64,000 nucleotides of DNA from Neorhizobium sp. NCHU2750 (GTDB lineage: Bacteria > Pseudomonadota > Alphaproteobacteria > Rhizobiales > Rhizobiaceae). The notes under the pieces were generated by a model. It did no database searches. It worked only from the letters and a program-made list of their open reading frames with translations, and was not told the origin of the DNA. The stretch is from the NCBI RefSeq assembly GCF_003597675.1, contig NZ_CP030828.1, positions 570,001 through 634,000 of the forward strand. The letters run 5' to 3'. Below, piece after piece: positions 25,931 through 45,777 of the stretch. The translations under genes were made by a program, and so were the position numbers. Each line of letters begins with the position of its first letter. Position 1 is the stretch's first letter.

Positions 25931-26074
25931 ATGATGATTGCAGCTGGTCGTGGCCGGCTACCGGCCCGGCGGCCGGCGCCTGGTCGTATTTTTCTTCATC
26001 GAAAATGCTGTCGTCGGAGGGCGGACGGCAGGCGCAGTCAGCTCCGCTGCCTTGGCGGGAATTGCTGCCGATGA
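25931..26074 (+). CDS. Possible 47-codon leader ORF coupled to the 2Fe-2S subunit gene
   Basis: An ATGATG start preceded by GGGGAACGAC opens a 47-codon frame rich in Arg and Cys (starts MMIAAGRGRLPARRPAPGR) whose TGA overlaps the ATG of the next gene as ATGA. The following gene has only a weak ribosome site of its own, so translation through this leader could deliver ribosomes to it. The peptide looks unlike a folded protein. It could be a chance frame in a ~170-base mRNA leader; the strong Shine-Dalgarno sequence and exact ATGA junction are the only support. Confidence 0.3.
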   Translation: MMIAAGRGRLPARRPAPGRIFLHRKCCRRRADGRRSQLRCLGGNCCR

Positions 26075-26568
26075 AGACCGGGCGCATTCATCTCAAGGTC
26101 AATGGCCGGGACCATGAATTCGATCTCTCTCCCGACACGCCTTTGCTCTACGTGCTTCGCAACGATCTCTGTCTGAACGGCCCGAAATTCGGCTGCGGGC
26201 TGGGCGAATGCGGCGCCTGTTCCGTGCTTGTGAATGGCAGGACGGTGCGCTCGTGCTCGATCTCGGTGGCTGCTGCGGAGGGCAGGGAGATCGTCACACT
26301 GGAGGGACTTGGCACCGTCGATGCGCCGCATCCCGTGCAACGGGCCTTTGTCGAGCAACAGGCCGCCCAATGCGGTTACTGCCTCAATGGCATGATCATG
26401 GCGGTTGCCGGCCTCCTCAACCGCAATCCGGACCCGGCAGAAGACGATATCCGCGCGGCCCTCAAGGGGCATCTCTGTCGCTGCGGCACCCATATGGAAA
26501 TCCTCGCGGCAGCAAGGCGGGCCAGCCAGTTGATGCGGGAGGCGCAGTTGGTGGAGATACGGTCATGA
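26071..26568 (+). CDS. Molybdenum hydroxylase [2Fe-2S] subunit, NicA/IorA-like
   Basis: A 165-residue small subunit of the xanthine dehydrogenase family. The plant-type cluster ligands are Cys42, Cys47, Cys50 (GCGLGECGAC) and Cys62; the second cluster ligands are Cys101, Cys104 (QCGYCLNGMIM), Cys136 and Cys138 (HLCRCGTHMEI). The length and direct coupling (ATGA) to a large subunit with fused cytochromes c match nicotinate dehydrogenase NicA of Pseudomonas putida (157 residues). It passes electrons from the molybdenum centre towards the haem domains. Start ATG 26071 gives the standard family N-terminus; in-frame extension to 25894 is possible but lacks similarity. Confidence 0.9.
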   Translation: MKTGRIHLKVNGRDHEFDLSPDTPLLYVLRNDLCLNGPKFGCGLGECGACSVLVNGRTVRSCSISVAAAEGREIVTLEGLGTVDAPHPVQRAFVEQQAAQCGYCLNGMIMAVAGLLNRNPDPAEDDIRAALKGHLCRCGTHMEILAAARRASQLMREAQLVEIRS

Positions 26569-29500
26569 CCCAACAGCGCGAAACGATTGTCTCCGCCTAT
26601 TTCGATGCTGCCGGGGCTCTTCTTGTCGTGCGGCAGAATGCGACCGGTGAGCCGGAACTGTTTCTTGCCATCGAGCCGGGCTGTCGGGTTACCGCATTCA
26701 ATGGGCATGTCGACCTTGGTACCGGTATTCGTACCGCCCTCGCGCAGATCGTCGCCGAGGAACTGGATATAGGCTTCGACCGCGTGACCATGGTGCTCGG
26801 CACCACCACCGCCGTTCCGAACCAGGGGCCGACGATCGCCAGCGAAACGATCCAGTTTGCCGCAAAGCCGCTGCGCCAGGCCGCAGCAACGGCGCGCAGG
26901 CACCTGCTGGAGCGCGCCGCGGCATTGCACGCACTGGCGCCCGCCGCCCTGATGATCGAGAATGGCGTGATCCGGCCAAGGGCGGAATCCAACTGGGAGC
27001 TGAGTTTCGACGATCTCATTTCGGATCGCAACGAGCAGATCGAAATCGACCCTATGGCGCCCGTCAAGGCCGCAGGAGATTATCGGCTTGTCGGCCGAGG
27101 ACAGCCGCGCAGCGACATCGCCGCGAAGGCCGCGGGAACCTGGTCCTATGTTCATGACGTTCGCGTACCCGGCATGCTGCATGGGCGCGTCGTGCGCCCG
27201 CCCTATACCGGCTTCGACAGCGGCGATTTCGTTGGCCGCAGTCTGCTTGCGGTCGACGAAGCCTCGATTGCGCATCTCCCGGGTATCGTCTCCATCGTCG
27301 TGGACGGCGATTTCATCGGTATCGTTGCGACACGTGAGGAATTCGCCGCCCAGGCCGCCCGTGAACTCAAGGTGACATGGAGGGAATTGCCGGAGTTCCA
27401 GGACCTTAACGATCCGGAAGAGCCGATCCGAAGGAACAGCGGCAAGCCACGCCTGTTGCGCGACCAGGGCGACGTCGAGCGGGCGCTGGCGGGAGCGGCG
27501 CCGCTGATGGAGCGCACCTATGTGTGGCCTTACCAGATGCATGCCTCGATCGGCCCATCCTGTGCCGTGGCGGACTGGAGGCCCGGCAGCCTGGTGGTCT
27601 GGTCGGGCACGCAGAACCCCTTTCCGATGCGGCGTGACCTGGCACTTCTGCTTGGTATGCCGGAGGGCGAGATTGTTGTCGAACGGCTGGAGGCGGCAGG
27701 CTGTTATGGCCGCAATTGCGCAGACGACGTGACGGCGGATGCCGCACTCCTTTCGCGGGCGGTGGGCAAGCCGGTCCGCGTACAGCTGACGAGGGAACAG
27801 GAACATGCCTGGGAGCCGAAAGGGGCAGCGCAGGTGATCGATGTTCGCGGCGGTCTCGACCTCGAAGGTGGGCCGGCCGGCTATGAATTCGATACCCGCT
27901 ATCCGTCCAATCTATCGCCAACGCTTGCGCTGGTCCTGACCGGGCGTGTGTCGAACATCGCGGATGTCTCCGATATGGGCGACCGTACGGCGATCCCGCC
28001 TTATGCCTTCGGCAATATGCGGGTCACCGTCCACGACATGCCGCCGATCGCCCGTGCCTCTTGGTTTCGCGGCGTCTCAGCCATGCCGAATTCGTTTGCG
28101 CATGAAAGCTTTATCGACGAATTGGCAGCTGCTGCGGGCGTCGATCCCGTCGAATACCGGCTTCGATATCTGACCGAGCCACGCTCCATCGATCTCGTGC
28201 GTGCCGTGACCGAGAGAGCCGGCTGGAAACCACGCACGCGGCCGGGAACCGAGGGCGGCGAGGGTGATCTGCTCTATGGCCGCGGTTTCGCCTATGCCGT
28301 TTATGTCCATGGCAAATTTCCGGGCATCGCCGCAGCCTGGTCGGCCTGGGTCGCAGATGTTGCGGTCAACAGGAAGACCGGCGAGATCGCGGTCACCAAG
28401 ATTACCGTCGGCCAGGATTCCGGGATGATGATCAACCCAGACGGGGTGAAGCATCAGATCCATGGTAATGTCATCCAGTCGCTGAGCCGGGTGTTGAAGG
28501 AAAAGGTCAGTTTCGACGGTGCCAGGGTCGAAAGCCTCGAATGGGGCGGTTATCCGATCATGACTTTCCCGGAAGTGCCGGATATCGATGTGCTGATGGT
28601 GCGGCGCCCGGATGACGAGCCGCTTGGCGTCGGCGAGTCCGCCTCGGTTCCGAGTGCTGCGGCGATCGTCAACGCGGTCTATGATGCGACCGGTCTGAGG
28701 TTCCGCGAACTGCCTTTGACGCCTGACCGAGTTCTGGCCGCGTTGCGCGAACAGCGTGGCGAGCACCTTCCTGCACCGGCAGTCGCGCAGGCGAAGAGGC
28801 GCGGCTGGTGGACACTGCCACTGGCGCTGGCCGGCATTGCCGGTGCAATTGCCGGAGGCATTACGCTCGCATCTCCTATTCGGGGGAGTTTTGCGCCCAT
28901 TCCGCGACCGGATCCCGGCGTCTTCAGTTCGGCGACAATCGAAAAAGGCAGGCTGGTCGCCGCGGCTGCGGGCTGCAACGTCTGTCACGAGGGTACGGAC
29001 GGCACGCCCTTCGCCGGTGGCCACGCATTCGAAACGCCCTTCGGAACGGTCTACTCCACCAATATCTCGCCCGATCCTGTTCATGGGATCGGAAACTGGT
29101 CTTACCCCGCTTTCGCACGGGCTATGCGTGAAGGGGTGGCCCGTGATGGCCGGCATCTCTACCCCGTTCATCCCTACACGTCTTTTGCCGGTGTGGATGA
29201 GGCCGATCTGCAGGCGCTCTACGCTTACCTGATGACGGCGGCACCGTCGGACGCCAAGTCGCCGACGAACGAGCTGAAGCCGCCTTTCAATATCCGCGGT
29301 CTGCTGGCGGGCTGGAATGCGCTTTATCTCGACCCTCAGCCCTTCAAGCCCGATCAGACCCGAAGCGCGAGCTGGAACCGTGGCGCCTATCTGGTGGAGA
29401 CGCTTGGCCATTGTTCCGCCTGTCATACAGAACGCAATATGCTTGGTGCCGAAAGGCAGGGCGAGGCGCATCTTGCCGGTGGTTATGCCGATGGCTGGTC

Positions 29501-30122
29501 GGCACCCTCCATCAATGGAGCAGGGGGTGGTCCCATCGGTTGGACCCGCGCAGCACTCTACGATTATCTTCGTACCGGCCATTCCGCCGAGCACGGCAGT
29601 GCAGGCGGTCCGATGGCCGAGGTGGTCGGTTCGCTTGCAGCCCTCCCGGATGAGGATATCGCCGCAATATCCGAATACCTTGCCGGCCGCGGCGAGGCCG
29701 TTTCGAGTGATGAGGCCAGTCGCCAGAAGGGCTTGAGACTGGCGGCCTCCGAGGCGGCAAAGCCCTCTGCGCTGGAGATCGCACCTGCCGGCGCGCGCAT
29801 ATTCGAAGGTGCCTGCGCTTCCTGCCACGAAAATGGCACGCCACTGGCCAGCCTTGCACTGCGTTCCGGGCTTTCGGCTTCGAGGCCGGATAATGTCGTC
29901 AATGCCATTCTAAAGGGGATGCATGCGCCGGCCGTGCTGACCGAAAAGGCGAGTGCCGAAGATCTGGAGATCATGCAGATGCCCGGCTTCTCCCAGAGCC
30001 TCAGTGATCGCCAGATCAGCGATCTTGCAGCCTATCTGAGGGCACGGTTTGCACCCGGCAAGCCTGCGTGGGAGGGCGTGAAAGAGGCGGTGGCGAGGGC
30101 GAGGGGGCGTGCCGGAGGGTGA
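26565..30122 (+). CDS. NicB/IorB-like molybdopterin hydroxylase large subunit fused to three cytochrome c domains
   Basis: An 1185-residue fusion. Residues ~1-740 are the aldehyde oxidase/xanthine dehydrogenase large subunit in the order seen in IorB-type enzymes: FNGHVDLGTGIRTALAQIV near 45-63 precedes the GRGQPRSDIAAKAAGTWSYV block (~180), and the active-site Glu691 is in LGVGESASVPSA. A membrane anchor follows (~747-768, WWTLPLALAGIAGAIAGG), then three haem-c sites: CNVCH 804-808, CSACH 950-954, CASCH 1084-1088. Size and layout match P. putida NicB (about 1187 residues), which hydroxylates nicotinate at C6 with cytochromes as acceptors. Substrate here could be nicotinate or another N-heteroaromatic acid. 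No Sec signal is seen, so how the haem part reaches the periplasm is unclear, as in NicB. Confidence 0.9.
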   Translation: MTQQRETIVSAYFDAAGALLVVRQNATGEPELFLAIEPGCRVTAFNGHVDLGTGIRTALAQIVAEELDIGFDRVTMVLGTTTAVPNQGPTIASETIQFAAKPLRQAAATARRHLLERAAALHALAPAALMIENGVIRPRAESNWELSFDDLISDRNEQIEIDPMAPVKAAGDYRLVGRGQPRSDIAAKAAGTWSYVHDVRVPGMLHGRVVRPPYTGFDSGDFVGRSLLAVDEASIAHLPGIVSIVVDGDFIGIVATREEFAAQAARELKVTWRELPEFQDLNDPEEPIRRNSGKPRLLRDQGDVERALAGAAPLMERTYVWPYQMHASIGPSCAVADWRPGSLVVWSGTQNPFPMRRDLALLLGMPEGEIVVERLEAAGCYGRNCADDVTADAALLSRAVGKPVRVQLTREQEHAWEPKGAAQVIDVRGGLDLEGGPAGYEFDTRYPSNLSPTLALVLTGRVSNIADVSDMGDRTAIPPYAFGNMRVTVHDMPPIARASWFRGVSAMPNSFAHESFIDELAAAAGVDPVEYRLRYLTEPRSIDLVRAVTERAGWKPRTRPGTEGGEGDLLYGRGFAYAVYVHGKFPGIAAAWSAWVADVAVNRKTGEIAVTKITVGQDSGMMINPDGVKHQIHGNVIQSLSRVLKEKVSFDGARVESLEWGGYPIMTFPEVPDIDVLMVRRPDDEPLGVGESASVPSAAAIVNAVYDATGLRFRELPLTPDRVLAALREQRGEHLPAPAVAQAKRRGWWTLPLALAGIAGAIAGGITLASPIRGSFAPIPRPDPGVFSSATIEKGRLVAAAAGCNVCHEGTDGTPFAGGHAFETPFGTVYSTNISPDPVHGIGNWSYPAFARAMREGVARDGRHLYPVHPYTSFAGVDEADLQALYAYLMTAAPSDAKSPTNELKPPFNIRGLLAGWNALYLDPQPFKPDQTRSASWNRGAYLVETLGHCSACHTERNMLGAERQGEAHLAGGYADGWSAPSINGAGGGPIGWTRAALYDYLRTGHSAEHGSAGGPMAEVVGSLAALPDEDIAAISEYLAGRGEAVSSDEASRQKGLRLAASEAAKPSALEIAPAGARIFEGACASCHENGTPLASLALRSGLSASRPDNVVNAILKGMHAPAVLTEKASAEDLEIMQMPGFSQSLSDRQISDLAAYLRARFAPGKPAWEGVKEAVARARGRAGG

Positions 30123-30182
30123 TTTGACGCAAACCTAACAGGTCGAAACACACGGGTCTGCCCGGCCGAAGGCCGTCGCCTC

Positions 30183-31019
30183 TCACCCCACAAACGCCCG
30201 TTCGACGACGAAGGTGGCAGGCTTGTTGTTGGCGCCTTCGACAAGCCCGAAACCTTCCAGCATGGCGGACGTATCCTTGATCATCGCCATCGAGCCGCAG
30301 ATCATCCCCCGGTCGATCTCCGGATCAATTCGCGGCAGGCCGGTCATCTCGAAAAATCGGCCGTCGGTCATCAGGTCCGTAATCCTGCCCATGCGCGGAA
30401 ACGTCTGGCGTGTCGTGCTGGTGAACAATTTGAGGCGACCCTCCACCAGATCGCCAACCAGAGGGTCGTCCCGCAGGTCTTCGACAAGGCGGGTGATATA
30501 GGTCAGCTCATCCACCTGGCGGCAGGTCTGGACCAGCACGACTTCCTCGAATTTCTCATAGGTCTCGGGATCACGCACGAGGCTGGCAAAGGGGGCAACG
30601 CCAGTGCCGGTCGAAAGCAGATAGAGCCGCTTGCCCGGCAGAAGCGCATCAAGCACCAATGTACCGGTCGGCTTCTTGCGCATCAGCACCGTATCGCCCG
30701 GCTTTATCTTCTGCAGATGTTCCGTCAGCGGCCCATTGGCAACCTTGATCGAGAAGAATTCGATCTCGTCGTCCCAGGAGGGGCTGGCGATCGAATAGGC
30801 ACGGAAAACCGGCTTCTGGGCGTTTGGCAGCCCGATCATCACGAATTCACCGGAGCGGAAGCGAAAGCTCGCCGGACGCGTGATGCGAAAGCGGAACAGA
30901 CGATCGGTGAAATGTTCGACAGCCACGACCTTTTCCGCGAACACATTGTCCGGAACGGCAAAGGTGGCTGCAACTTCCGCGACCGCGTGCATATTCGTGG
31001 CCAAGCCGCCTTCCGTCAT
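30183..31019 (-). CDS. fpr: Ferredoxin-NADP+ reductase (bacterial subclass FPR)
   Basis: A 278-residue FAD-binding reductase. FAD motif RAYSIASPSWDDEIEFFSIKV (~72-92, the RxYS signature), NADP motif LLSTGTGVAPFASLVRDPET (~135-154), and the C-terminal VERAFVG typical of alphaproteobacterial Fpr. It interconverts NADPH and reduced ferredoxin. ATG 31019 follows GAGG at 6 bases; an upstream ATG at 31049 lies inside an operator and before the predicted transcript start. This appears to be a pathway-dedicated copy: its promoter shares the palindrome found upstream of the Hnr-like reductase, a ferredoxin-dependent family, so it likely supplies that enzyme. Confidence 0.9.
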   Translation of the reverse strand: MTEGGLATNMHAVAEVAATFAVPDNVFAEKVVAVEHFTDRLFRFRITRPASFRFRSGEFVMIGLPNAQKPVFRAYSIASPSWDDEIEFFSIKVANGPLTEHLQKIKPGDTVLMRKKPTGTLVLDALLPGKRLYLLSTGTGVAPFASLVRDPETYEKFEEVVLVQTCRQVDELTYITRLVEDLRDDPLVGDLVEGRLKLFTSTTRQTFPRMGRITDLMTDGRFFEMTGLPRIDPEIDRGMICGSMAMIKDTSAMLEGFGLVEGANNKPATFVVERAFVG

Positions 31020-31035
31020 GATGACCTCGTCAAAA

Positions 31036-31081: not shown

Positions 31082-31088
31082 GAATTGT

Positions 31089-32552
31089 TCAGCCAACCGT
31101 GGGCGTCGAGAGAAGCCAAAGGCCGAACACCGTATATCCGACCATGACCAGCGCCAGAGAAATCTGGCTGACGGTCGCGCGTGCAGGGCTTTTCAGGCGT
31201 TGCAACGCAATCATGTGGGCAAGCAGGATGCCGATGCAATGACCGATGGCGATGACTGCCGTCTGGGTGGTCCAGACCGTCTGAACATTATGGATATCGG
31301 TCAGCACCGATCCTGTGACATGCCAATGCGCCGTACCGAACAGATCCCATCCCCGGTGGAATGGGTCGGATATGACCGCATAGAGATACTGACCGTTCAT
31401 CAAAAGTAGGCCGAGATAGTGCGCTGCGTGAAAGGCGACCGAGATCGGCACGATCGAATAGACCAGATGTGTTGCAAGTTGCACCATAACCCGCCAGCCG
31501 CGCTCGCCGACGAGCCATGCGCCGATCAGGACTGCGAAGAAATAGATCGAGGCGAGGATGATGGGTGCCGCGATGAGGCCAAGCGTATTCGGCAGCATCA
31601 CGCCGCTGCGACCGAGAAACTCGAGCGGATTGACCTCAATGGTCGCGAGCCATGTGAAAGTTTCTGCGAAGCCATCAAAAGAGGCCGTCCCGAGCGTCAG
31701 TAGCAGGAATATGGCGGCACTCGGGGAGGGCGGTTCTTCCGTCACGCATCTCTGGCCCGGCCAGGCGAAGTGGACGGTCGCCCATATACCTCCCGATCTG
31801 GGCGGTTCGATCTGAATTGGAGCGATCATGCCGATCATGCGGAAATAGACGGAGAAGGGCTCGCCGCGCCGTGTCCATTCTTCTTCGCCGAAGATCACCA
31901 CCGCCGCGAGATTGCCGAGCCAGTAGAGCGTAACGACCATGGCCAGACCGGGCGGGTCTTCCGGGGCAAGCGAGATCAATTCGAACCATGCAAAGCCAAA
32001 GAAAAGCAGGATGGCCGGCAGATAGCCCAGAGCCGCGGGAAGCTGCGCCATCGGCTCCCGTCCCAGCGGTCGCCCCGTCACCTTTCGCAGCATGGCGAGC
32101 GGTCCGGTCCAGGGATTGAACCACGGCCAGAGGTTTCCGAAAATGGCCTGCACCAGCGTGAACCCTACCCAGAACAGGGTCCAGACGACCAGCGGCAGAG
32201 GGTTTTCCAGTGGATCGGCCGTGGAATACAAGCCCGTTGCCACCAAAGCGGCAAGCACCAGGAAGCTGGCGCTGCTGACGATAACGGTTGGCACAACCGG
32301 CCTGTTGGTCAAGATGAAAACCGCTTTGCTGGCTCGGGAGAACCATGCGGCGGGAACAAGAAGAAGGGCGACGAAAGTAACCGCGACGACGATTGCCCCG
32401 CCGGTCATGTAATAGTCGGTCGGCAGCAGCATCACCATGCCGCGCTCGGTGCCGTGTGCATACGCACAATCAGGCGCAAAAAGGCCGGCTGTGGCTGCGA
32501 CGAAAAATGTTAAAAAAATACCGGGATTTAGGCCGTTGACCTGAAGTTTCAT
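31089..32552 (-). CDS. Polytopic membrane protein of unknown function, His-rich
   Basis: A ~487-residue inner-membrane protein (MKLQVNGLNPGIFLTFFVAA...) with a Sec-type signal (cleavage near CAYAHG) and about eleven or twelve further helices. The region after the signal begins AHGTERG; near the C-terminus several conserved-looking histidines lie in or beside helices (SVAFHAAHYLGLLLM, FGTAHWHVTGSVLTDIHN, IGHCIGILLAHMIAL). Clustered His in helices is typical of haem- or metal-binding membrane proteins, but no family is recognised. ATG 32552 follows GAGGG. It lies downstream of a regulon palindrome and upstream of fpr, suggesting an electron-transfer, transport or metal role in the same pathway. 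Confidence 0.7.
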   Translation of the reverse strand: MKLQVNGLNPGIFLTFFVAATAGLFAPDCAYAHGTERGMVMLLPTDYYMTGGAIVVAVTFVALLLVPAAWFSRASKAVFILTNRPVVPTVIVSSASFLVLAALVATGLYSTADPLENPLPLVVWTLFWVGFTLVQAIFGNLWPWFNPWTGPLAMLRKVTGRPLGREPMAQLPAALGYLPAILLFFGFAWFELISLAPEDPPGLAMVVTLYWLGNLAAVVIFGEEEWTRRGEPFSVYFRMIGMIAPIQIEPPRSGGIWATVHFAWPGQRCVTEEPPSPSAAIFLLLTLGTASFDGFAETFTWLATIEVNPLEFLGRSGVMLPNTLGLIAAPIILASIYFFAVLIGAWLVGERGWRVMVQLATHLVYSIVPISVAFHAAHYLGLLLMNGQYLYAVISDPFHRGWDLFGTAHWHVTGSVLTDIHNVQTVWTTQTAVIAIGHCIGILLAHMIALQRLKSPARATVSQISLALVMVGYTVFGLWLLSTPTVG

Positions 32553-32861
32553 GCGACCCTCGAATTCAGCGGCCAAGCCGGATTTCTACATCACGTTCAT
32601 CTGAAAATTAAGGCCTTCCATGGCCTTTGAACTTCCGCCAGACTGCGGCGAATCCTGCCGTCCGTGGTGCTCGGGAGCATGAAGAAATTATTCGTTGGCA
32701 TACAAACAGGAGGTGGCCCCGTTGTCCATGGTCGATCACCTAATTTTCAACGCTCCCGATGCGGCGCTTGTCAATCATCAAACATCGTGATTTGTTGGTA
32801 GGCGAATGATCTATCGCACAAGAATGACGGACGTTCTTTCCACTAAGAGGGGAAATCTAAA
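32553..32861. promoter_or_regulatory. Divergent region with operator C, membrane-protein gene and ABC operon
   Basis: The 309-bp gap holds TTGGCA-TACAAA at 32695-32706, a looser match to the palindromes at 25.9, 31.0, 38.2 and 42.0 kb. It is ~145 bases from the membrane-protein start and ~155 from the binding-protein start, so it could act on either transcript. No TTGACA lies at the 36-base spacing on either strand. The plus-strand gene has a strong AAGAGGGGAAA ribosome site at ~32845-32855. No small gene seen. Confidence 0.45.
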
Positions 32862-34169
32862 ATGACCGACAAGACCGCAGACCCGAAATCCTCATTGACG
32901 CGCCGCTCGACGCTTCTGGGAATGGGAGCCGCCGCCGGCGCCGGCGTTATCTCTTCCGTGTCGCCCGGCTTCGTTCGCTATGCTCAGGCACAATCGTCCG
33001 AACCGATCAAGCTCGGTTTCGAATGTCACCGCACCGGCATCGGTGCCTCCTATGGACGCTGGTACGAGCGCGTCGCCAATGCCGCAGTGAAGATCATCAA
33101 CGACGAAGGCGGCATCAATGGGCGACCGATCCAGCTGATCGTCGAGGATGACGGCACCGATCCCAAGCGCGGTGCCGAAGTCGTCGAGAAATTCGCCACC
33201 CAGCACAAGGTCGATGCCGTTTTCGGCACGCTTTTCTCGAATGTCGTCGTGGGCGCTGCGCCGCGCGCCGGCGAACTCAAGATGCCGTATCTCGTCGTGT
33301 CCGAAGGCACCCATGTGTCGTCGGGGAGCCTTAATCGCTATTGCTTCCAGCCCGGCATTACCGACGTCCGCAGCCAGGTCATTTCAATGGCGCCGTGGAT
33401 CACCAAGAATCTCGGCAAGAAGGTCACGATGATCTATCCGGACTATGCTTTCGGCTACGATCACCGCGACAACCTTCCGCCGGCGATCAAGGCGCAGGGC
33501 GGCGAAGTGCTGGAACTGATTGCCGTTCCGCCGACGGAAACGTCCTTTACCCGTTATCTGCCGCGTATTCCGAGCGACACGGATGTGCTTTACCACATCA
33601 TGGTAGGCCCCTCGGTGCTGACATTCGTCACCGAACTCGGGCAGTTCTACGGCTCGCAGCGACCGGCGATCTTCGGTTTCATGGACAGTATCGAAGCCGT
33701 CGACCTTGCCACACCGCAGCTCGGCTTTCTCGATGGCACCTATTTCTGGGAAGGCATGCCGCGTTACGCCCAGAAGGACCAGAGCCAGTGGGACAAGCTT
33801 TATCGCGCGGCCGTTGGCGTCAATGAGAACGGTGCCAGCGTCAAGGATCCGAAGGACATCTCCACCTATTCCCATATGTTCGGTGTCTGGGAGACGCTTT
33901 TCGTCATCAAACAGGCCATGCAGGCCGCCGGTTATTCCGGTCCGCAGGACAAGGCGAAGTTCATAGAAGCGCTTGAGGCGATACAAAAGTTCGATGAAGG
34001 TCGCGATCACCCGCAGGGCGACAAGATCTTCAACGGCAAGAACCACCAGGCCTATGGCCACCAGAACATCTCAAAGGTCAATGGTACGCGCCTGGACGTC
34101 GTCCATCGCACCTCGATCGAGGACGGGATGTACGAGTCAAAGACCGACTATACGAAAATGTCTCTCTGA
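32862..34169 (+). CDS. Branched-chain-type ABC substrate-binding protein (Peripla_BP_6), Tat-like signal
   Basis: A 435-residue precursor. TRRSTLLGMGAAAGAG supplies a twin-arginine-like motif and hydrophobic core, with cleavage after YAQAQ (~residues 40-45). The mature protein begins EPIKLGFECHRTGIGASYGRWYERVANAAVKIINDEGGINGRP, the LivJ/AmiC-like type I periplasmic fold (named in pieces: IKLGFECHRTG, INDEGGINGRP). Binding proteins of this class take aliphatic amides, urea and aromatic acids as well as amino acids. It is the first gene of an SBP-LivH-LivM-LivG-LivF operon embedded in the heterocycle regulon, so the ligand is probably the heteroaromatic substrate. Confidence 0.9.
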   Translation: MTDKTADPKSSLTRRSTLLGMGAAAGAGVISSVSPGFVRYAQAQSSEPIKLGFECHRTGIGASYGRWYERVANAAVKIINDEGGINGRPIQLIVEDDGTDPKRGAEVVEKFATQHKVDAVFGTLFSNVVVGAAPRAGELKMPYLVVSEGTHVSSGSLNRYCFQPGITDVRSQVISMAPWITKNLGKKVTMIYPDYAFGYDHRDNLPPAIKAQGGEVLELIAVPPTETSFTRYLPRIPSDTDVLYHIMVGPSVLTFVTELGQFYGSQRPAIFGFMDSIEAVDLATPQLGFLDGTYFWEGMPRYAQKDQSQWDKLYRAAVGVNENGASVKDPKDISTYSHMFGVWETLFVIKQAMQAAGYSGPQDKAKFIEALEAIQKFDEGRDHPQGDKIFNGKNHQAYGHQNISKVNGTRLDVVHRTSIEDGMYESKTDYTKMSL

Positions 34170-34282
34170 CAGAGCCTTGAGCCGAGGGGGCCTCGTGCGG
34201 CGCCCTCGGTGTCTTCCGTGATCCTTTGCCGTCCGAATTATCCGGCAGGGGACGCGTGTGCCCTTGAACCAAGGAGAGAGTC

Positions 34283-36845: not shown

Positions 36846-36846
36846 C

Positions 36847-37545
36847 ATGTTGGAGATCGACAATCTCGACGTCTATCATGGCAATAGCCAGACCCTCAAA
36901 GGCATGTCGCTGAGCTTGAACAAGGGGGAGGTGCTCTGCCTTCTGGGGCGCAATGGCGCGGGCAAGACGACGACGCTGCGCGCCATCATGGGGCTGGCGC
37001 GTGCAAAGGGCGGCAGCATCCGTTTCGATGGCAAGGAGATATCGGGACTGCCTGCTCACGAAGTTCCCCGTCGCGGCATCGGTTATGTGCCGCAAGGACG
37101 ACGTCTGTTTTCCGAGTTGACGGTGCGCGAAAACCTGGAAATCGGCCTGATGACGCGCAACAGCCCCCGTCACGTACTGGACGAAGCACTGGCTCTTTTT
37201 CCGCGGCTTCAGGAGCGGCTTTCTCAGGTGTCGGGCACGCTGTCCGGCGGTGAGCAGCAGATGCTCGCAACCGCGCGCGCCATGTGCGTCGATCCGTCGG
37301 TCATCCTGCTGGATGAGCCGACGGAAGGGCTGATGCCGTCGATGATCGCCACCATCCGCGATGTGGTGGTGACGCTGCGCGACCGCGGCAAGGCCATATT
37401 GCTCGTCGAGCAGCGCGTCGAGGCGGTTCTATCCGTCGCCGATCGTGTTTGCTTCGTCGAAAACGGCAAGGCGCAGGCGATCCTGCCGGTTCAGGCGCTG
37501 AAGGACGACCCTTCACTGCTGTCCCGCTATGTCGGTGTCGGATAA
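36847..37545 (+). CDS. Branched-chain-type ABC ATPase, LivF family
   Basis: A 232-residue ATPase: LEIDNLDVYHGNSQTLKGMS start, Walker A GRNGAGKTTTLRAIMG, GYVPQGRRLFSELTVRENL (LivF-type Q-loop), signature LSGGEQQMLATARAM, Walker B VILLDEPTEGL. It completes the importer and converges with the MarR gene two bases away. Confidence 0.9.
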   Translation: MLEIDNLDVYHGNSQTLKGMSLSLNKGEVLCLLGRNGAGKTTTLRAIMGLARAKGGSIRFDGKEISGLPAHEVPRRGIGYVPQGRRLFSELTVRENLEIGLMTRNSPRHVLDEALALFPRLQERLSQVSGTLSGGEQQMLATARAMCVDPSVILLDEPTEGLMPSMIATIRDVVVTLRDRGKAILLVEQRVEAVLSVADRVCFVENGKAQAILPVQALKDDPSLLSRYVGVG

Positions 37546-37547
37546 TG

Positions 37548-37982
37548 TCAGGTGATCTTGCGCAGCAGTTCGATGAACATCATGCGCTCAGCCGATGTCA
37601 GAGGGTTGAGCGTGTTCTCGGTTGCCGTGACGGCAGCGGAAAGGTTTGCCGCGATGATGGCGTGGCCGGGCTCGGTGAGCTTCAGCACAAGTCGGCGGCC
37701 GTCATTCGGGTCAGGGGCGGTGCGGATGAAGCCGCGTTTGACCATACGGTCGACGACGCCCTTGATGGTCGCGACATCCATGGCCGTTTCCCGGCCAAGC
37801 TGGTTCTGGGAACACGGTTCGATCTGGCGGAGTTTGGTCAAGGCCGCCCATTGTGTCGTGGTCAGCTTGTCGCCGATCAGCGAGTTGAAAATGGCAACGT
37901 GCCGCTGGTTCGCCTGGCGCAGGAAAAAGCCGATCTGCTGGTCGACCTCATAGTCGGTCGTATCGGATCGTTTGTCATCCAT
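37548..37982 (-). CDS. MarR-family regulator, candidate controller of the heterocycle regulon
   Basis: A 144-residue MarR protein (MDDKRSDTTDYEVDQQIGFF). The winged helix is TTTQWAALTKLRQIEPCSQNQ then LGRETAMDVATIKGVVDRM (recognition helix) and GFIRTAPDPNDGRRLVLKLT (wing). It is divergent from the Hnr-like gene across a region with a TTTGTATACGAA operator. The nicotinate regulators NicR (P. putida) and BpsR (Bordetella) are MarR proteins responding to 6-hydroxynicotinate, so an analogous role is plausible. No other regulator gene lies between 25.5 and 45.8 kb, which makes it the default candidate for the shared palindromes. Confidence 0.85.
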   Translation of the reverse strand: MDDKRSDTTDYEVDQQIGFFLRQANQRHVAIFNSLIGDKLTTTQWAALTKLRQIEPCSQNQLGRETAMDVATIKGVVDRMVKRGFIRTAPDPNDGRRLVLKLTEPGHAIIAANLSAAVTATENTLNPLTSAERMMFIELLRKIT

Positions 37983-38316
37983 CGTTTCGAATTCCTGACG
38001 TATCGCGCTGCGGCCGTGCCTGATCTGCGGCTTCGTTCATCGAAAGGGGTTTAGCCCGCCACCTGGAATTGTCAATCTGGAGGACTGAAGTCGCTGGCTT
38101 GGCAGGCGATGTGGAAAATGAGCGGTGGCTGTCCGTCACGGCTGGGCATATGCTGCATGCGACAATGAGAGCGAGCGAAGGTCGGCTTGACAGGGCGGGG
38201 AAGTCAATCGATACTCATTTGTATACGAACGAAAATCATCTCGATCATAACGCGTTTCTACCGCGCTGCATCCGATGGATCCATCTGATGCGCCGGTCCT
38301 CGGGAAGGAGATTTCC
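37983..38316. promoter_or_regulatory. marR-hnr divergent region with promoter and TTTGTA-TACGAA operator
   Basis: Plus-strand promoter: TTGACA at 38187-38192, 17 bases, GATACT at 38210-38215, then the palindrome TTTGTATACGAA at 38218-38229 over the expected start site, centre 36 bases from the -35 start. A leader of roughly 95 bases leads to AAGGAG at 38305-38310 and the TTG start at 38317. The left part (37983-38150) should hold the marR promoter; nothing else is recognisable there. Confidence 0.65.
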
Positions 38317-39810: not shown

Positions 39811-39829
39811 GACGAGCAGGGAGGTGGCT

Positions 39830-40777
39830 GTGACAGGCGCAAAGGCCTTTTATCTCGATGGAGATGCTGGCGGCAGGCTGCACCTGCAGCACGGCCCGAT
39901 CGATCTCGTCATCGGGGTGGACAGTCTTTCGGCGCGTGCCCGTGATCATCGAGGCGCGGCCTACAAAGCCGCTCACGCTCGGTTCGCGACGATCCTCGAA
40001 GAGTTGGTGTCTGAACTGCCATTGCTGAAACAGCCGGCAATGCGCGGAGGACAGGTGCCCAATGGAGTGACAGCGCGTCGGATGTTTGCAGCCGTCCTGC
40101 CTTTTGCCGACAGCCATTTCATCACGCCCATGGCTGCAGTCGCGGGTTCTGTCGCAGACGAGATCCTCGCTGCAATGCTTCAGGTCTTTCCTGCCGGCGA
40201 CCGCCCGTCGCGCATCTATGTCAACAACGGCGGTGATATCGCCCTGCATCTTGATCCCGGCGCGGAATACCGGATCCGCATGGCGCGGGAGGATAATGTC
40301 GCCCTTGGCGACGTTCTCGTCAGCCATGGCGACGAAAGCCGCGGTATCGCCACAAGCGGCCGCGGGGGACGAAGCCTTTCTATGGGCATTGCCGATTCAG
40401 TCACCGTGATTGCTGCCAACGCCGCGTCTGCAGACGCCGCAGCGACCCTCATCGCCAACGCCGTCGATCTGCCGGATCATCCGTCGATCACGCGATGCCG
40501 TGCGGTCGATGTCGTTGACGACAGCGATCTCGGGGAGCGGCTAGTGGTGACTGGATGTGGACCACTTCTCGCCGAAGACGTCGATGTCGCTCTGGCGGCC
40601 GGCCTTGACGAGGCGGAAGGCTTCATCGCTCGGGGCTTCATTCATCGCGCAGCCCTTTTTCTTGGCGGCGAGGGTCGGCTTGCCTCCGGCCCGCGCAATC
40701 TTGACAATCACTTTATGACACACACAAGCGGAGCATTGCCCCCATGCCTGAACCCGTTGTCCGCAAATATGCGCTAA
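39830..40777 (+). CDS. UPF0280 family protein (ApbE-like fold)
   Basis: About 315 residues from GTG 39830, five bases after GGGAGG. Visible landmarks are LQHGPIDLVIGVD, ADSHFITPMAAVAGSVADEIL (~96-116), IYVNNGGDIALHL (~138-150) and GIATSGRGGRSLSMGIADSV (~183-202), the pattern of UPF0280 proteins, distant relatives of the ApbE flavin transferases (compare NNGGDI with NxGGD in ApbE). It is directly between the Hnr-like gene (19-bp gap) and the AA_synth pair (34-bp overlap). If the Hnr-like enzyme carries covalent flavin, this would be the obvious candidate to attach it; that is a hypothesis. Confidence 0.8.
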   Translation: MTGAKAFYLDGDAGGRLHLQHGPIDLVIGVDSLSARARDHRGAAYKAAHARFATILEELVSELPLLKQPAMRGGQVPNGVTARRMFAAVLPFADSHFITPMAAVAGSVADEILAAMLQVFPAGDRPSRIYVNNGGDIALHLDPGAEYRIRMAREDNVALGDVLVSHGDESRGIATSGRGGRSLSMGIADSVTVIAANAASADAAATLIANAVDLPDHPSITRCRAVDVVDDSDLGERLVVTGCGPLLAEDVDVALAAGLDEAEGFIARGFIHRAALFLGGEGRLASGPRNLDNHFMTHTSGALPPCLNPLSANMR

Positions 40778-41325
40778 CCGTCGAAGAGATCTTTCATGAA
40801 GGCGGCAAGCCCGCCGATGTGCCGCTGAAGAAGGGCGTCATGCTGGCGGTGATCGAAAATCCGTTTGCCGGCAGCTATCACGAGGACATTGCCGGTTTCA
40901 TGAAGGATCTTGAGCCACTCGGCGTGTCGATGGCAAAGCGCCTGGCGGAAGCGCTGGGCGGTGCCGCCGTCATTGAAGGCTATGGCAAGGGCGCCATTGT
41001 CGGCCAGGCCGGCGAGCTTGAGCACGGAGCGCTCTGGCACGTGCCGGGCGGATATTCGATGCGGGAAGTTTTAGGGGACGCCAAGGCGATCGTACCTTCG
41101 ACCAAGAAGGTAGGCGGACCTGGCACGCGTCTCGATGTTCCGGTCACCCATATCAATGCCTCCTATGTTCGCAGCCATTTCGATGCGATGGAAGTCGGTA
41201 TTCCCGACGCGCCGCGCGCTGGCGAAATCGTCCTGGCTCTGGTGATGACCACCGGCGCCCGCGTCCACGCACGCGTCGGGGGCCTCAAGGCCGAGGACAT
41301 CAAGGGTGAGGACGGACTGCGGTGA
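40744..41325 (+). CDS. 'Amino acid synthesis' family protein (PF06684), copy 1
   Basis: A 193-residue cytoplasmic protein, start MPEPVVRKYALTVEEIFHEG. It contains AVIENPFAGSYHEDIAGFM, EGYGKGAIVGQAGELEHGAL, and a C-terminal INASYVRSHFDAMEVGIPDAPRAGE; these blocks match PF06684, whose name does not reflect a proven function. It overlaps the UPF0280 gene by 34 bases and the second copy by GTGA. Two adjacent, diverged copies suggest a heterodimer. Position in a heterocycle-degradation operon suggests a hydrolase or isomerase on a cyclic amide, unproven. Confidence 0.8.
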   Translation: MPEPVVRKYALTVEEIFHEGGKPADVPLKKGVMLAVIENPFAGSYHEDIAGFMKDLEPLGVSMAKRLAEALGGAAVIEGYGKGAIVGQAGELEHGALWHVPGGYSMREVLGDAKAIVPSTKKVGGPGTRLDVPVTHINASYVRSHFDAMEVGIPDAPRAGEIVLALVMTTGARVHARVGGLKAEDIKGEDGLR

Positions 41326-41906
41326 GCGCCGAAATCCGCAAGATCACCGTGGTGCTGGAGGAAGTGCTGAGGGAGGCCGGCGAACCGGTTTCGCCACCAA
41401 CGCGGCGTGCGGCAGCGATGGCCGTCATCCGCAATCCGTTTGCCGGTCGTTACGAGAAGGATCTCTCCGAATTGATCGATCAGGGCGCGGAATTGGGCGG
41501 TATCCTGACGGCCAGATGCATTGAGGCCCTCGGTATCGAGCCATCGCAGGCCGAAAGCTATGGCAAGGGGGCACTGGTGGGGGAAGATGGCGAGCTTGAA
41601 CATGCTGCCGCGCTCTTGCATCCGGCAATGGGCAAGCCGGTGCGTGACGCGCTGGGCGGTGGCGCGGCGCTCATTCCATCCTCCAAGGCGCGCGGTCCGA
41701 TGGGTATGGCCTTTAATATCCCTCTCGGCCACAGGCACGCGGCATTCGTGCGCTCGCATTTCGATGGCATGGTGGTGAAGGTCAGTGATGCACCCCGTGC
41801 GAACGAAATTGTCGTAGCGGTGGCCGTGACGGATAGCGGTCGGCCGCATCCGCGTATCGGCGGGCTGGCGAAAGAGGATGTCGTCGGCAAAGATGGGTTG
41901 CGTTGA
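41322..41906 (+). CDS. 'Amino acid synthesis' family protein (PF06684), copy 2
   Basis: A 194-residue paralogue of the preceding protein (shared NPFAG-Y, YGKGALVGEDGELEHAAALLHP, FVRSHFDGMVVKVSDAPRANE blocks). It starts at GTG 41322, overlapping the first copy's stop. Differences concentrate around residues 50-70 (GGILTARCIEALG against SMAKRLAEALG), leaving conserved Tyr-Gly-Lys and Glu-His positions in both. It ends 65 bases before the HyuA gene, which has its own operator-promoter, so hnr-UPF0280-AA_synth-AA_synth form one unit. Confidence 0.8.
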   Translation: MSAEIRKITVVLEEVLREAGEPVSPPTRRAAAMAVIRNPFAGRYEKDLSELIDQGAELGGILTARCIEALGIEPSQAESYGKGALVGEDGELEHAAALLHPAMGKPVRDALGGGAALIPSSKARGPMGMAFNIPLGHRHAAFVRSHFDGMVVKVSDAPRANEIVVAVAVTDSGRPHPRIGGLAKEDVVGKDGLR

Positions 41907-41922
41907 TCGGTCGGCAGATCGC

Positions 41923-41965
41923 TTGACAGCCTCATGTCGTCAACGCAAATTCATTCGTATACTAA
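41923..41965 (+). promoter_or_regulatory. hyuA promoter with TTCGTA-TACTAA operator
   Basis: TTGACA at 41923-41928, 17 bases, CAAATT at 41946-41951, then TTCGTATACTAA at 41954-41965. The palindrome centre is 36 bases from the -35 start, as in the hnr and fpr promoters. The predicted start site lies inside the palindrome only ~12 bases from ATG 41972, so the mRNA leader is very short. Confidence 0.65.
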
Positions 41966-41971
41966 TAAATA

Positions 41972-44077
41972 ATGGGAACGGTCGTGCAACGGGATTTAGC
42001 TGAAAAGGCAGGCCGCCAGTCGCAGGTGGCGGGTATCGATGTCGGTGGCACCTTTACCGATCTTGTGCTGTTCGATTCCGAGCACGGCACTGTTCGGTTG
42101 GCGAAGACGCCGACGACGCTCGATAATCAGGCAACCGGCGTGCTGAATGCGCTCGATGCCGCCGAAGCCGAGCTGGCTGCGCTGGACCTCATTGTCCATG
42201 GCACGACGACGACGACCAACGCGGTTCTGGAGCGCAATCTCTGCAGGACCGGGCTGATCACCACGATGGGGTTTCGCGACGTGCTGGAGCTTGGCCGGCG
42301 CACGCGGCCGCAAGCCTACGGGATGAAGGGCCATTTCGTTCCGATCATTCCCCGCGATCTGCGGTTGGAAGTTCCAGAACGGATGGATGCCCGTGGCAAC
42401 GTTCTGACGCCGCTCGACGAGGACGCTTTGCGTGCTGCGATGCAGGAGCTGATCGCCAAGGGCTGCGAGGCGCTGGTCATTCATTTTCTGCATTCCTATG
42501 CCAATCCCGCCCACGAGATCCGGGCTGGAGAGATTGCCGCAGAGATCTGGTCGAACGCCAATGTCACGATCGGTCACACGCTTTTGTCGGAGAGCCGGGA
42601 ATTCGAGCGCGGCGTGACGGCGGCAGTCAACGCATCCGTCCAGCCGCTGCTGCGCCGTTATGTCGAGCGACTGGCCGACCAACTTGCGGGGCGCGGCTAT
42701 CGGCATGATGTGCTGGTGATGAACGGCAACGGCGGCATGGTGTCCGCTCGGCACGTGGCCGCGGAAGCAGCCAAGACGGTGATGTCCGGCCCTGCCTCCG
42801 GTGTCATGGCGGCGGCCTATACCGGCCGCCGCGCCGGCATTCCGAACCTCATCACCTACGATATGGGGGGCACCTCGACCGATGTCGCCCTGATCCGCAA
42901 TGCGGAGCCCGCGGTGTCGAACGAGATCGAGATCGAATATGCGATGCCGATCCATGTGCCGATGGTCGATGTGCGCACGGTCGGGGCGGGCGGCGGATCG
43001 ATTGCCCGTATCACGCCGGCCGGTCTGCTTCAGGTCGGACCGGAGAGTGCCGGAGCGACGCCGGGGCCGATCTGTTATGGCCGAGGCGGCGTGCTGCCGA
43101 CCATTTCCGACGCCAACATGCTACTCGGACGGCTCAATCCGGCACGGTTGAATTCCGTGCCGGGTGGCCCGACGATGGAGAGCATCTCGGCCATATTTGA
43201 AGAGAAGCTGGGGCGGGCGCTCGGCGTCGGGGCGATCGAGGCCGCCGCCGCCGTCATCCGTATCGCCAATACGCGCATGGCGGATGCCGTGCGCATGGTC
43301 TCCGTCAGCCTCGGCGAGGACCCGCGGGATTTCGCGCTGTTTGCCTTTGGCGGTGCCGGTCCTCTCCATTCGACTGCAATTGCCCGCGAACTTGGCATCC
43401 CAAGGGTCCTGACCCCGGCGCGTCCGGGCATCACCAATGCGTTGGGCTGCGTTGTTGCCGATCTTCGCCACGACTTCGTCAATACGGTCAACCGGCCGCT
43501 TCACTCCGTTGATATTGCAGCGGTTCATGCGCTGTTCGATAAGCAGTCCACCGAGGGACGACGGTTGATCGACAAGGAAGCCGTGGCGATCCGTGAAGTG
43601 CGGGAAATCTGGTCGGTCGACATGCAGTTCGTCGGCCAGACGCATCTGTTGCGCGTGCCGCTTACCTCGCCGTCGCCGACGATCGACGAATTGCAGGCAC
43701 GTTTCGAGGAGGTCTATTTCCAGCGCTTCCGGGTTGAACTTTCAGACATCCGTGCGAGCCTCGTCAACGTCAACACGTCGGTCATCGGCCGCCGCGCCGA
43801 GATCGATCTGTCGCTGTTGATCGATGGCGCCGGGCGCAAGTCCACGCTGGCCGAAGCTCGCACGGGTAGCCGTAACGTCTGGTTCGGTCAGTGGATGGAA
43901 ACTCCAATCTATTGGCGCGACCATCTTCCTGCCGATGCCGTCGTCAGTGGTCCCGCCATCATCGAGCAGATGGATACGACGATCATCATCGAGCCGGGCG
44001 ATGTGGGTGTGCAGGACCACGACGGCAACATCATCATCACGCTTGGAGCCGCTGAACGTTCGGGAGCCGCAGAATGA
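41972..44077 (+). CDS. Hydantoinase/oxoprolinase family protein, HyuA subunit (locus 1)
   Basis: A 701-residue ATP-grasp-independent, actin-like-fold ATPase subunit of the hydantoinase A/oxoprolinase family. Motifs: AGIDVGGTFTDLVLFD (~20-35), LIVHGTTTTTNAVLER (~72-87), GNGGMVSARHVA, YDMGGTSTDVALIRN and GAGGGSIARITPAG. Family members cleave hydantoins, N-methylhydantoin or 5-oxoproline with ATP, or act as acetone/acetophenone carboxylase subunits. Partner HyuB overlaps by ATGA. ATG 41972 lacks a ribosome site; GTG 41984 preceded by GGGA is an alternative. In this regulon a cyclic amide such as a reduced oxo-nicotinate is a plausible substrate. Confidence 0.88.
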   Translation: MGTVVQRDLAEKAGRQSQVAGIDVGGTFTDLVLFDSEHGTVRLAKTPTTLDNQATGVLNALDAAEAELAALDLIVHGTTTTTNAVLERNLCRTGLITTMGFRDVLELGRRTRPQAYGMKGHFVPIIPRDLRLEVPERMDARGNVLTPLDEDALRAAMQELIAKGCEALVIHFLHSYANPAHEIRAGEIAAEIWSNANVTIGHTLLSESREFERGVTAAVNASVQPLLRRYVERLADQLAGRGYRHDVLVMNGNGGMVSARHVAAEAAKTVMSGPASGVMAAAYTGRRAGIPNLITYDMGGTSTDVALIRNAEPAVSNEIEIEYAMPIHVPMVDVRTVGAGGGSIARITPAGLLQVGPESAGATPGPICYGRGGVLPTISDANMLLGRLNPARLNSVPGGPTMESISAIFEEKLGRALGVGAIEAAAAVIRIANTRMADAVRMVSVSLGEDPRDFALFAFGGAGPLHSTAIARELGIPRVLTPARPGITNALGCVVADLRHDFVNTVNRPLHSVDIAAVHALFDKQSTEGRRLIDKEAVAIREVREIWSVDMQFVGQTHLLRVPLTSPSPTIDELQARFEEVYFQRFRVELSDIRASLVNVNTSVIGRRAEIDLSLLIDGAGRKSTLAEARTGSRNVWFGQWMETPIYWRDHLPADAVVSGPAIIEQMDTTIIIEPGDVGVQDHDGNIIITLGAAERSGAAE

Positions 44078-45777
44078 CGATCGATCCGATTACCCTTTCG
44101 GTCATCCAGTCGGGCCTGCAGCAGGTCTGTGACGAGATGGACCTGACCTTTTCGCGTGCGGCCTTCTCACCGGTCATCGCCGAAGCCAATGACCGCTCGG
44201 ACGGTATCTATTCGGCCGAGGACGGTTCGCTGATCGCTCAAGGGGCGGCCGGCCTGCCGGTCTTTGTCGGTACGATGCAATATTCCACCCGCACGCTGAT
44301 CGAGATGATCAAGGCGGGCAAGGTTGCCGAGCCAAAGGCTGGCGACATCTACATCGTCAATGATCCTTATCTCGGCGGCACGCACCTGATGGATGTGCGC
44401 TTCGCCATGCCGGTCTATCGCGAGGGCGTAATTTTCTGCTGGTTGTCCAATACCGGCCACTGGCCGGATACCGGTGGCGCCGTTCCAGGCGGATTTTCTG
44501 CCTCGGCGACGGCAGTCGAGCAGGAAGGATTGCGGCTCCCGCCGGTCCGGCTTTTCAAGCAGGGCGTGCTTGATCAGGAAATCTATTCGATCATCTGCTC
44601 CAATATCCGTGTTTCCGAACAGCGTATCGGAGATGTGAAGGCCCAGGCTGCGGCTCTACTGGTCGGCGAACAGCGGCTTGCACGGATTCTCGACCGGTAT
44701 GGCGACGTTACGGTGTGTGAGGCAATCGCCGAACTTAGGGTCAGGGCGGCTGATCAGATGCGCGCCTATGCAAGGCTGATCCCGGACGGCGTCTACAACT
44801 CGGTCGCCTATGTCGACAGCGACGGGGTCATCGATGAGCCGCTCGAAATCCGGCTGGCGATCACGGCACAGGACGGTGCGCTGGAATTCGATTTTTCAGG
44901 CTCTTCGAAACCCTGCATGGGGCCGATGAATTCGGTTCTGGCGACAACCATGTCGTCGGTCTATCTCGCCATGCGCCATATATTCCCCGATGTGCCTATC
45001 TCGGCCGGTGCTTTCGAGCCGCTGACGGTGATCAGGCCGGAAGGCACGTTCCTCGATGCGCAATATCCGCGGCCGGTGTCCGGTTGTGCCGCCGAAGTGT
45101 CCCAGCGCATTGCCGAGGCGGTGTTCCGGGCATTGGTCGAGGCTTTGCCGGATCGAGTCACGGCGGCGCCGGCCGGGACGTCCGGCAATTTTGCGCTCGG
45201 CGGTTTCGACCCCGACCGCAATCGCGGCTTTGTCATGTATCAGATTTCCGGTGGCGGCTACGGCGGTAATATCGACAATGACGGGCTGTCGAACGGCTGC
45301 TCAACGATCGGCATTTCCAAGGCGCCGCCGGTGGAGATTATGGAACAGCAGTTCCCGGTTCTCTATCACCGTTATGCGTTGCGGGAGGGCTCGGGCGGTG
45401 CCGGTCGGCATCGTGGTGGTTTCGGGCTCGATTACGAGGTCGAGCTTCTGCGCGGCCATGCGACAGCAAGTTTCGTCATGGATCACGGCCGCTTTGGTCC
45501 GCCCGGTGCGCTCGGCGGCAAAGACGGCATGCCGAATTCCGTGACCGTCTTCAAGGGCGGTGAGACGCTCGTACCGGAGCATCTGTCCAAGGCGCAGGAT
45601 ATCCCGCTTCTGCCGGGCGATCGGGTGAGGGTCGGAACACCGGGTGGCGGTGGCTACGGCGATCCGAAGGCGCGTGATCGGGCCGCAGTGGCCGAGGACG
45701 TCCGATTCGGACGGTACACCGCCGAACAGGCGCATGATCTGTTCGGCGTTGCGATGGACGACATGGCGGCGGAGTGA
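44074..45777 (+). CDS. Hydantoinase B/oxoprolinase family protein, HyuB subunit (locus 1)
   Basis: A 567-residue partner subunit starting MTIDPITLSVIQSGLQQVCDE (blocks IDPITLSVI, MDLTFSRAAFSPVIAEANDRSD). Further landmarks are YIVNDPYLGGTHLMDVRFAMP (metal-associated NDPYxGGTHL), QEGLRLPPVRLF, FSGSSKPCMGPMNS and the Gly-rich C-terminus VGTPGGGGYGDP. HyuB subunits supply the hydrolytic active site together with HyuA. Coupled to hyuA; the next gene is convergent, so this ends the operon. Confidence 0.9.
   Translation: MTIDPITLSVIQSGLQQVCDEMDLTFSRAAFSPVIAEANDRSDGIYSAEDGSLIAQGAAGLPVFVGTMQYSTRTLIEMIKAGKVAEPKAGDIYIVNDPYLGGTHLMDVRFAMPVYREGVIFCWLSNTGHWPDTGGAVPGGFSASATAVEQEGLRLPPVRLFKQGVLDQEIYSIICSNIRVSEQRIGDVKAQAAALLVGEQRLARILDRYGDVTVCEAIAELRVRAADQMRAYARLIPDGVYNSVAYVDSDGVIDEPLEIRLAITAQDGALEFDFSGSSKPCMGPMNSVLATTMSSVYLAMRHIFPDVPISAGAFEPLTVIRPEGTFLDAQYPRPVSGCAAEVSQRIAEAVFRALVEALPDRVTAAPAGTSGNFALGGFDPDRNRGFVMYQISGGGYGGNIDNDGLSNGCSTIGISKAPPVEIMEQQFPVLYHRYALREGSGGAGRHRGGFGLDYEVELLRGHATASFVMDHGRFGPPGALGGKDGMPNSVTVFKGGETLVPEHLSKAQDIPLLPGDRVRVGTPGGGGYGDPKARDRAAVAEDVRFGRYTAEQAHDLFGVAMDDMAAE

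Follow-up and report, generated by a model that had tools for sequence, protein, structure and literature searches.

A probable reductive nicotinate regulon in Neorhizobium sp. NCHU2750 with HyuAB proposed in the place of enamidase

A nicotinate-type gene cluster and its published relatives

The stretch of DNA analysed here (64,000 nucleotides; hereafter the window) comes from Neorhizobium sp. NCHU2750, positions 570,001 to 634,000 of NZ_CP030828.1, and forms part of contig 2 in a 6.35 Mb genome, G000 in our genome set. It carries a gene cluster centred on Hnr, a 6-hydroxynicotinate reductase-like protein (Table 1). The original prediction, made from the letters alone, had listed NicAB, a ferredoxin-NADP reductase (FNR), a Liv-type importer, a MarR regulator, Hnr, UPF0280, two PF06684 proteins and HyuAB, and every one of these was found in the span it gave; absent from that list were a membrane protein gene beside the importer and four copies of one palindrome, one per transcription unit. 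The hnr gene, the UPF0280 gene, both PF06684 genes, hyuA and hyuB follow one another on the plus strand with small gaps or overlaps. We read the cluster as a probable reductive nicotinate catabolic regulon in which HyuAB would open the ring of tetrahydro-oxonicotinate (THON) with ATP. New here, as far as sequence comparison goes, are HyuAB for enamidase, the shared palindrome and the coupling of UPF0280 to Hnr.

The NicB protein of the window is 61-65% identical to NicB of Bradyrhizobium/Xanthobacter-type hnr loci, against 21-23% to five other molybdenum hydroxylases of its own genome. Hnr matches 25 plasmid records at 63-81%, 16 of the 25 being annotated as 6-hydroxynicotinate reductase, and it is called an orthologue by comparison with such records. 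By Hnr, the nearest named relative is Neorhizobium alkalisoli (94%); one Bradyrhizobium Hnr stands at 73% identity, and across 24 sequences eight cysteines are each conserved to at least 96%. Its AlphaFold2 model is poor (pLDDT 64.6), and no PDB entry matched it at E 0.001. The MarR homologue in the plasmid locus L016 is annotated NicR, and at several hnr loci a membrane protein gene of the kind seen here adjoins a gene for a Liv binding protein of the window's type.

Excerpts of PMC3511419 describe a conserved reductive nicotinate cluster in the aerobic alphaproteobacteria Azorhizobium, Bradyrhizobium, Rhodopseudomonas and SG-6C, where a hydroxylase, Hnr, an importer and proteins of unknown function are grouped as they are in the window, and report growth cultures of SG-6C that broke down nicotinate supplied as the only carbon source. 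Our locus appears to be a Neorhizobium-type member of this cluster, predicted to lead from nicotinate through 6-hydroxynicotinate to THON. Since the same cluster type has been published, at least as excerpted from that paper, novelty does not extend to the pathway as such. The hydroxylation of a nicotinate-like acid by NicAB followed by ferredoxin-driven reduction by Hnr, as first proposed for this locus, gains support from the published cluster type; the accompanying expectation of new downstream chemistry stands for one step only, at which HyuAB very probably takes over from enamidase. The two unknown-function proteins of PMC3511419 (in excerpt) are probably UPF0280 and PF06684, a correspondence drawn from Bradyrhizobium-type loci and not from the genomes of that paper. 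Like the window, the Bradyrhizobium-type loci have NicAB, Hnr, UPF0280, PF06684, Liv, MarR and often FNR, but most of them carry enamidase; one, L178, has all of the listed genes, enamidase and FNR included. Compared with these sister clusters, the window has HyuAB for enamidase, an importer of another score class with the membrane protein gene beside it, and a different gene order. In E. barkeri, too, Hnr reportedly reduces 6-hydroxynicotinate to THON, as proposed for the window, but that organism is said to be an anaerobe with a four-subunit selenium hydroxylase, a bifunctional Fe/Zn enamidase and propionate as its end product.

Table 1. Genes and operator-like sites of the cluster (window coordinates)
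Feature	Position	Strand	Basis or remark
Palindromic operator-like site before nicA	25891..25902	.	1 mismatch
NicA-like [2Fe-2S] subunit, nicotinate hydroxylase	26071..26568	+	Fer2, Fer2_2 domains
NicB-like molybdenum subunit, three C-terminal CxxCH c-type haem motifs	26565..30122	+	Mo-binding domains
FNR-like ferredoxin-NADP reductase, putative electron donor	30183..31019	-	family match
Membrane protein, adjoins importer	31089..32576	-	hydrophobic sequence; no Pfam or NCBIfam match
Operator-like site between membrane protein gene and importer	32695..32706	.	1 mismatch
Liv-type importer, substrate-binding protein	32862..34169	+	family match
Liv-type permeases and ATPases	34283..37545 (34283-35164, 35161-36123, 36102-36845, 36847-37545)	+	
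MarR-family regulator	37548..37982	-	domain match
Operator-like site between marR and hnr	38218..38229	.	no mismatch
Hnr, 6-hydroxynicotinate reductase-like Fe-S flavoprotein, 511 amino acids	38275..39810	+	
UPF0280 (COG2122), ApbE-like; proposed Hnr maturation partner	39824..40777	+	exceeds NCBIfam cut-off
PF06684 protein 1	40744..41325	+	domain match
PF06684 protein 2	41322..41906	+	domain match; 44% identity to protein 1
Operator-like site before hyuA	41954..41965	.	no mismatch
HyuA, ATP-binding subunit of proposed THON lactamase	41972..44077	+	family match, motifs
HyuB, metal-site subunit of proposed THON lactamase	44074..45777	+	family match, motifs

Enamidase, HyuAB and a shared palindrome

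The original prediction had remarked on a missing enamidase at this locus, and a search of the whole genome of the window at E 1e-3 likewise found none. The query, an amidohydrolase from the Sulfitobacter plasmid locus L017 that aligns over its full length with the solved E. barkeri enamidase, PDB 2VUN (E 6.7e-105), has matches in 29 of 61 genomes, G000 being one of the 61. These are the genomes covered by the opener search among the 76 in which hnr was found. With minimum identities of 64% for enamidase and 58% for HyuA, 26 of the 61 carry enamidase (64-77% to the query), 34 carry HyuA (58-100%), none carries both and one carries neither, that one being 70% complete; the exclusion has a Fisher p of 2e-16 with shared descent ignored. 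Among 80 genomes without hnr, HyuA reaches its cut-off in none and enamidase in one. At the looser cut-offs of the searches themselves, the enamidase family is found in 29 of 61 hnr genomes and 2 of 80 hnr-less genomes, and HyuA in 34 of 61 and 2 of 80 (both at 53%).

The 110 hnr loci of at least 18 kb include 52 with enamidase, 22 with HyuAB, none with both and 36 with neither. For 25 of these 36 the whole genome was searched, and in each case exactly one opener turned up, either past the end of the stretch or at another site; for the remaining 11 the search covered the locus stretch. In the Hnr tree built for the 61 genomes, the HyuA label changes at least eight times and the enamidase label at least seven times. 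A wider tree places the window in a clade of 13 rows (100% support), 11 of them with HyuAB at the locus and two, G008 and G011, with neither opener there and an 80-81% HyuA outside the stretch. This clade sits in a set of 45 rows, the remainder of which is mostly enamidase (27/32). We conclude that HyuAB very probably replaces enamidase at the same step of the sister clusters, a reading built on these patterns of occurrence.

A second line of evidence comes from the palindrome TTNGTATACNAA. With at most one mismatch it has four copies in the 64 kb window, against 0.19 expected in shuffles, and all four precede units of this cluster. In 21 sister loci we counted 50 sites versus 0-2 in five Markov resamples; one of the 50 lies inside a UPF0280 gene, and the other 49 are outside the query-marked genes, mostly shortly upstream of one. 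We then count a site as preceding a gene when it lies within 300 bases before it, in a wider set of 138 loci: enamidase 31/58, HyuA 10/27, nicA 10/18, xdhM 47/99, FNR 17/29, membrane protein 7/12, binding protein 5/16, hnr 22/134 and marR 24/99. The operon-internal genes have none (UPF0280 0/133, PF06684 0/190, HyuB 0/25, XdhLS 0/100, NicB 0/17), and random windows contain a site in 25 of 1122 cases. By these counts one type of site precedes both hyuA in the window and the enamidase gene of sister clusters, and HyuA genes scoring above 1000 bits against the window HyuA have it in 8 of 12 cases. The MarR/NicR-like regulator of the cluster is the presumed binder of the palindrome.

Several results weigh against this reading. 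Corrected for descent, the swap comes down to five independent well-supported pairs, four opposite and one undecided, a number too small to reach significance (sign test p 0.125), and the opener search left 15 of the 76 hnr genomes uncovered. At E 1e-20 three HyuA genomes (G039, G055, G348) also hold a 37-40% enamidase homologue, and the HyuA cut is narrow, homologues at 50-53% existing, two of them in hnr-less genomes. The palindrome precedes just 2 of 15 HyuA genes that score 700-1000 bits against the window HyuA. PF06684, the candidate for the deamination that HyuAB would leave undone, is absent from 7 of 22 HyuAB loci and from none of the 52 enamidase loci, the reverse of what a helper of HyuAB would lead one to expect. 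Finally, the HyuAB family is not specific by itself, because the window holds a second HyuA/HyuB pair (51127-55647) behind a divergent GntR-type regulator gene, its HyuA 36.5% identical to the first; a scan of the 64 kb window found no palindrome site near this pair. If HyuAB does stand in for enamidase, two unrelated enzymes would have traded places almost perfectly at a single step of the pathway and under a shared operator, an unusually clean non-orthologous replacement.

UPF0280 as a probable partner of Hnr

Of 385 alphaproteobacterial genomes, the 68 that have Hnr are also the 68 that have UPF0280, and neither occurs in the other 317 (an Hnr match in G241 was set aside). In 137 loci, two of them duplicates, the sequence runs on for 1.5 kb or more past hnr, and UPF0280 is present in 133 of these and directly adjacent in 127; it is missing at the locus in L143, L160, L167 and L170. 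UPF0280 thus distributed looks like a dedicated, obligate-looking partner of Hnr and not like a downstream enzyme. The protein matches PDB 2O34 (E 7e-6), which we take to be DVU1097, a COG2122 protein. For the COG2122 proteins DVU1097 and MA1715 the partner is DUF39, whereas for the UPF0280 of the window it is Hnr.

What such a partner might do is suggested by its likeness to the flavin transferase ApbE. Aligned with the ApbE profile, UPF0280 reaches an hhalign probability of 83% over 90 columns (E 8.5e-6; two unrelated controls gave 0.44); its score with the Pfam ApbE model is 11 bits, below the cut-off. Motifs common to the two families are GGD/GE (40/40 UPF0280 sequences), ATSG (38/40) and AD..AT (40/40), and the last two fall at the Ser and Asp of the ApbE catalytic centre, in which Ser241, His257 and Asp285 are conserved (PMC12052999, in excerpt). 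The catalytic histidine motif of ApbE, HxxDP, is present in 1 of 40 UPF0280 proteins versus 6 of 6 ApbE proteins, and a change of this His abolishes flavin transfer according to excerpts of PMC5655446. The canonical ApbE target motif, D-x-x-[ST]-G-A-[ST], occurs in none of 61 Hnr sequences. ApbE proper (PF02424) was not found in the genome of the window, and it was found in 7 of 30 genomes searched, three of them with hnr (G008, G039, G045), so that ApbE is not tied to hnr. The Hnr of E. barkeri reportedly bears a covalent flavin. Because of this flavin, the coupling to Hnr and the likeness to ApbE, we favour UPF0280 as a maturation factor for Hnr, most likely a flavin-related one that would work by other than canonical ApbE chemistry.

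A competing explanation, which deserves a sizeable though minor share of belief, is that UPF0280 serves Hnr in sulfur trafficking or as an Fe-S factor, in line with the proposal for its homologue MA1715. In Desulfovibrio and Methanosarcina, COG2122 proteins are linked, together with DUF39, to the use of sulfide (excerpts of PMC5764234 and PMC12068725), and the absence of the HxxDP histidine from 39 of 40 UPF0280 proteins, like that of the target motif from Hnr, fits such a role. It is weakened, however, because no cysteine is common to all UPF0280 proteins (3 of 40 have none at all); DUF39, moreover, was found in 0 of 349 genomes of the phylum of the window, and UPF0280 keeps ATSG and AD..AT as well as the alignment with ApbE given above. 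As to a kinship of Hnr with DUF39 (COG1900), the other partner of COG2122, PF01837 was not among the hmmscan matches of Hnr at E up to 10, a range in which the filters drop most matches above 0.1. In the open-licence PMC literature the name UPF0280 had no match, and a search for ApbE or flavin transferase gave no hydroxynicotinate among the matches listed. COG2122 has been tied to homocysteine synthesis with its role unsettled (PMC5764234 and PMC12068725, in excerpt), and Hnr provides another system for studying it. Returning to the flavin-related role, we advance tentatively, and with slightly less than even confidence, the joint proposal that aerobic alphaproteobacteria repeatedly exchanged enamidase for HyuAB and that UPF0280 is an enzyme dedicated to loading the cofactor of Hnr through a histidine-less form of ApbE chemistry.

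A proposed route, its alternatives and neighbouring genes

HyuA has the ATP motifs DVGGTFTD, DMGGT and GATPGP at residues about 23, 297 and 361, and HyuB has GTHLMD (about 102-107) and GHWPD (about 128-132), two motifs that may hold the Asp-His-Asp-His metal tetrad of such lactamases. Comparable ATP and metal-site-like motifs are reported for caprolactamase in excerpts of PMC8453981, and OplAB, of the same family, opens the six-membered lactam delta-valerolactam (PMC11033972, in excerpt). As far as these excerpts go, CapAB and OplAB resemble the HyuAB of the window in having two subunits, ATP motifs and metal-site-like motifs, and they act on unstrained lactams, as is proposed for HyuAB, on a different substrate. 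The best NCBIfam models are caprolactamase CapA for HyuA and CapB for HyuB, and both scores are far under the equivalog cut-offs (482 and 309 bits vs 1000). In hnr loci the HyuAB genes are annotated merely as hydantoinase or acetophenone carboxylase, and a search of the open-licence PMC literature found no paper that pairs hydantoinase with 6-hydroxynicotinate. To our knowledge, ATP-driven ring opening occurs in no described nicotinate pathway.

In the route that we propose, the Liv importer would bring nicotinate into the cell, and NicAB, judging by its family and the identity of its NicB, would hydroxylate it to 6-hydroxynicotinate and hand the electrons to the NicB haems. Electrons from NADPH would travel through the FNR-like protein and ferredoxin to Hnr, which would reduce the ring to THON. 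HyuA may then activate the lactam with ATP so that HyuB can hydrolyse it and the ring opens; the complementarity with enamidase is observed, and the activity is predicted from it. HyuAB, unlike the bifunctional enamidase, should leave the amino group in place, and the ring-opened enamine would then have to lose ammonia, either spontaneously or with the help of an enzyme, to give 2-formylglutarate. UPF0280, observed to go with Hnr, would mature it, probably its flavin, and the MarR/NicR-like regulator, if correctly paired with the palindrome sites, would control the four units.

The same architecture could serve another substrate, such as picolinate, pyrazinoate or the product of trigonelline, with Hnr reducing a hydroxylated ring and HyuAB opening the lactam. 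The sequence fixes no particular ring, the hydroxylases beside hnr do vary (NicB at 18 of 110 loci, Xdh at 83, neither at 9), and some loci have a Rieske oxygenase. We nevertheless consider this unlikely, for in NicB, Hnr, operator and gene content the window agrees with the cluster type linked to the breakdown of nicotinate in SG-6C (PMC3511419, in excerpt), and HyuA alternates with an enamidase of the E. barkeri family. The Rieske oxygenase gene lies inside several xdhM-xdhLS hnr loci (L057, L135, L144, L146, L162 and others), and our guess is that its product could remove the methyl group of N-methyl pyridinium acids, trigonelline for example. Among the papers listed for homarine and pyrazinoate routes in the open-licence PMC literature, none has hnr in the title or abstract shown.

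PF06684 goes with either opener, occurring at 52 of 52 enamidase loci and at 15 of 22 HyuAB loci; these counts disfavour it as a deaminase finishing the HyuAB step. Its predicted model is good (90.2) and, past DUF1185, has solely weak fold matches (Rid and cyclic-amide hydrolases). It is quite improbable that HyuAB acts later in the route and that some gene not yet recognised as such is the real opener, for example PF06684 with this fold weakly like the Rid and cyclic-amide hydrolases. Away from hnr, PF06684 also lies beside a 39-41% enamidase homologue at G359:C1:1039468-1041253, G269:C1:100028-101812, G437:C2:602390-604129, G440:C1:344089-345836 and G119:C7:28200-29932, the last in a genome without an hnr match; these pairs perhaps belong to another lactam pathway.

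With HyuAB as the putative THON lactamase of a nicotinate regulon, three widespread orphan families (the HyuAB clade, UPF0280/COG2122 and PF06684) gain a pathway context. The HyuAB clade, so far labelled hydantoinase or acetophenone carboxylase, gains a predicted substrate, and it and UPF0280 gain concrete, testable roles.

Two further groups of genes flank the cluster. To the left of nicA (21295-25458) are genes for a luciferase-like monooxygenase, a DAO-type oxidoreductase and a flavin reductase, adjoined by a peptide-type ABC transporter. To the right, on the minus strand (45892-48412), two peroxidase/CMD-domain genes stand with a flavoprotein gene, resembling the TIGR04029/TIGR04030 pair.

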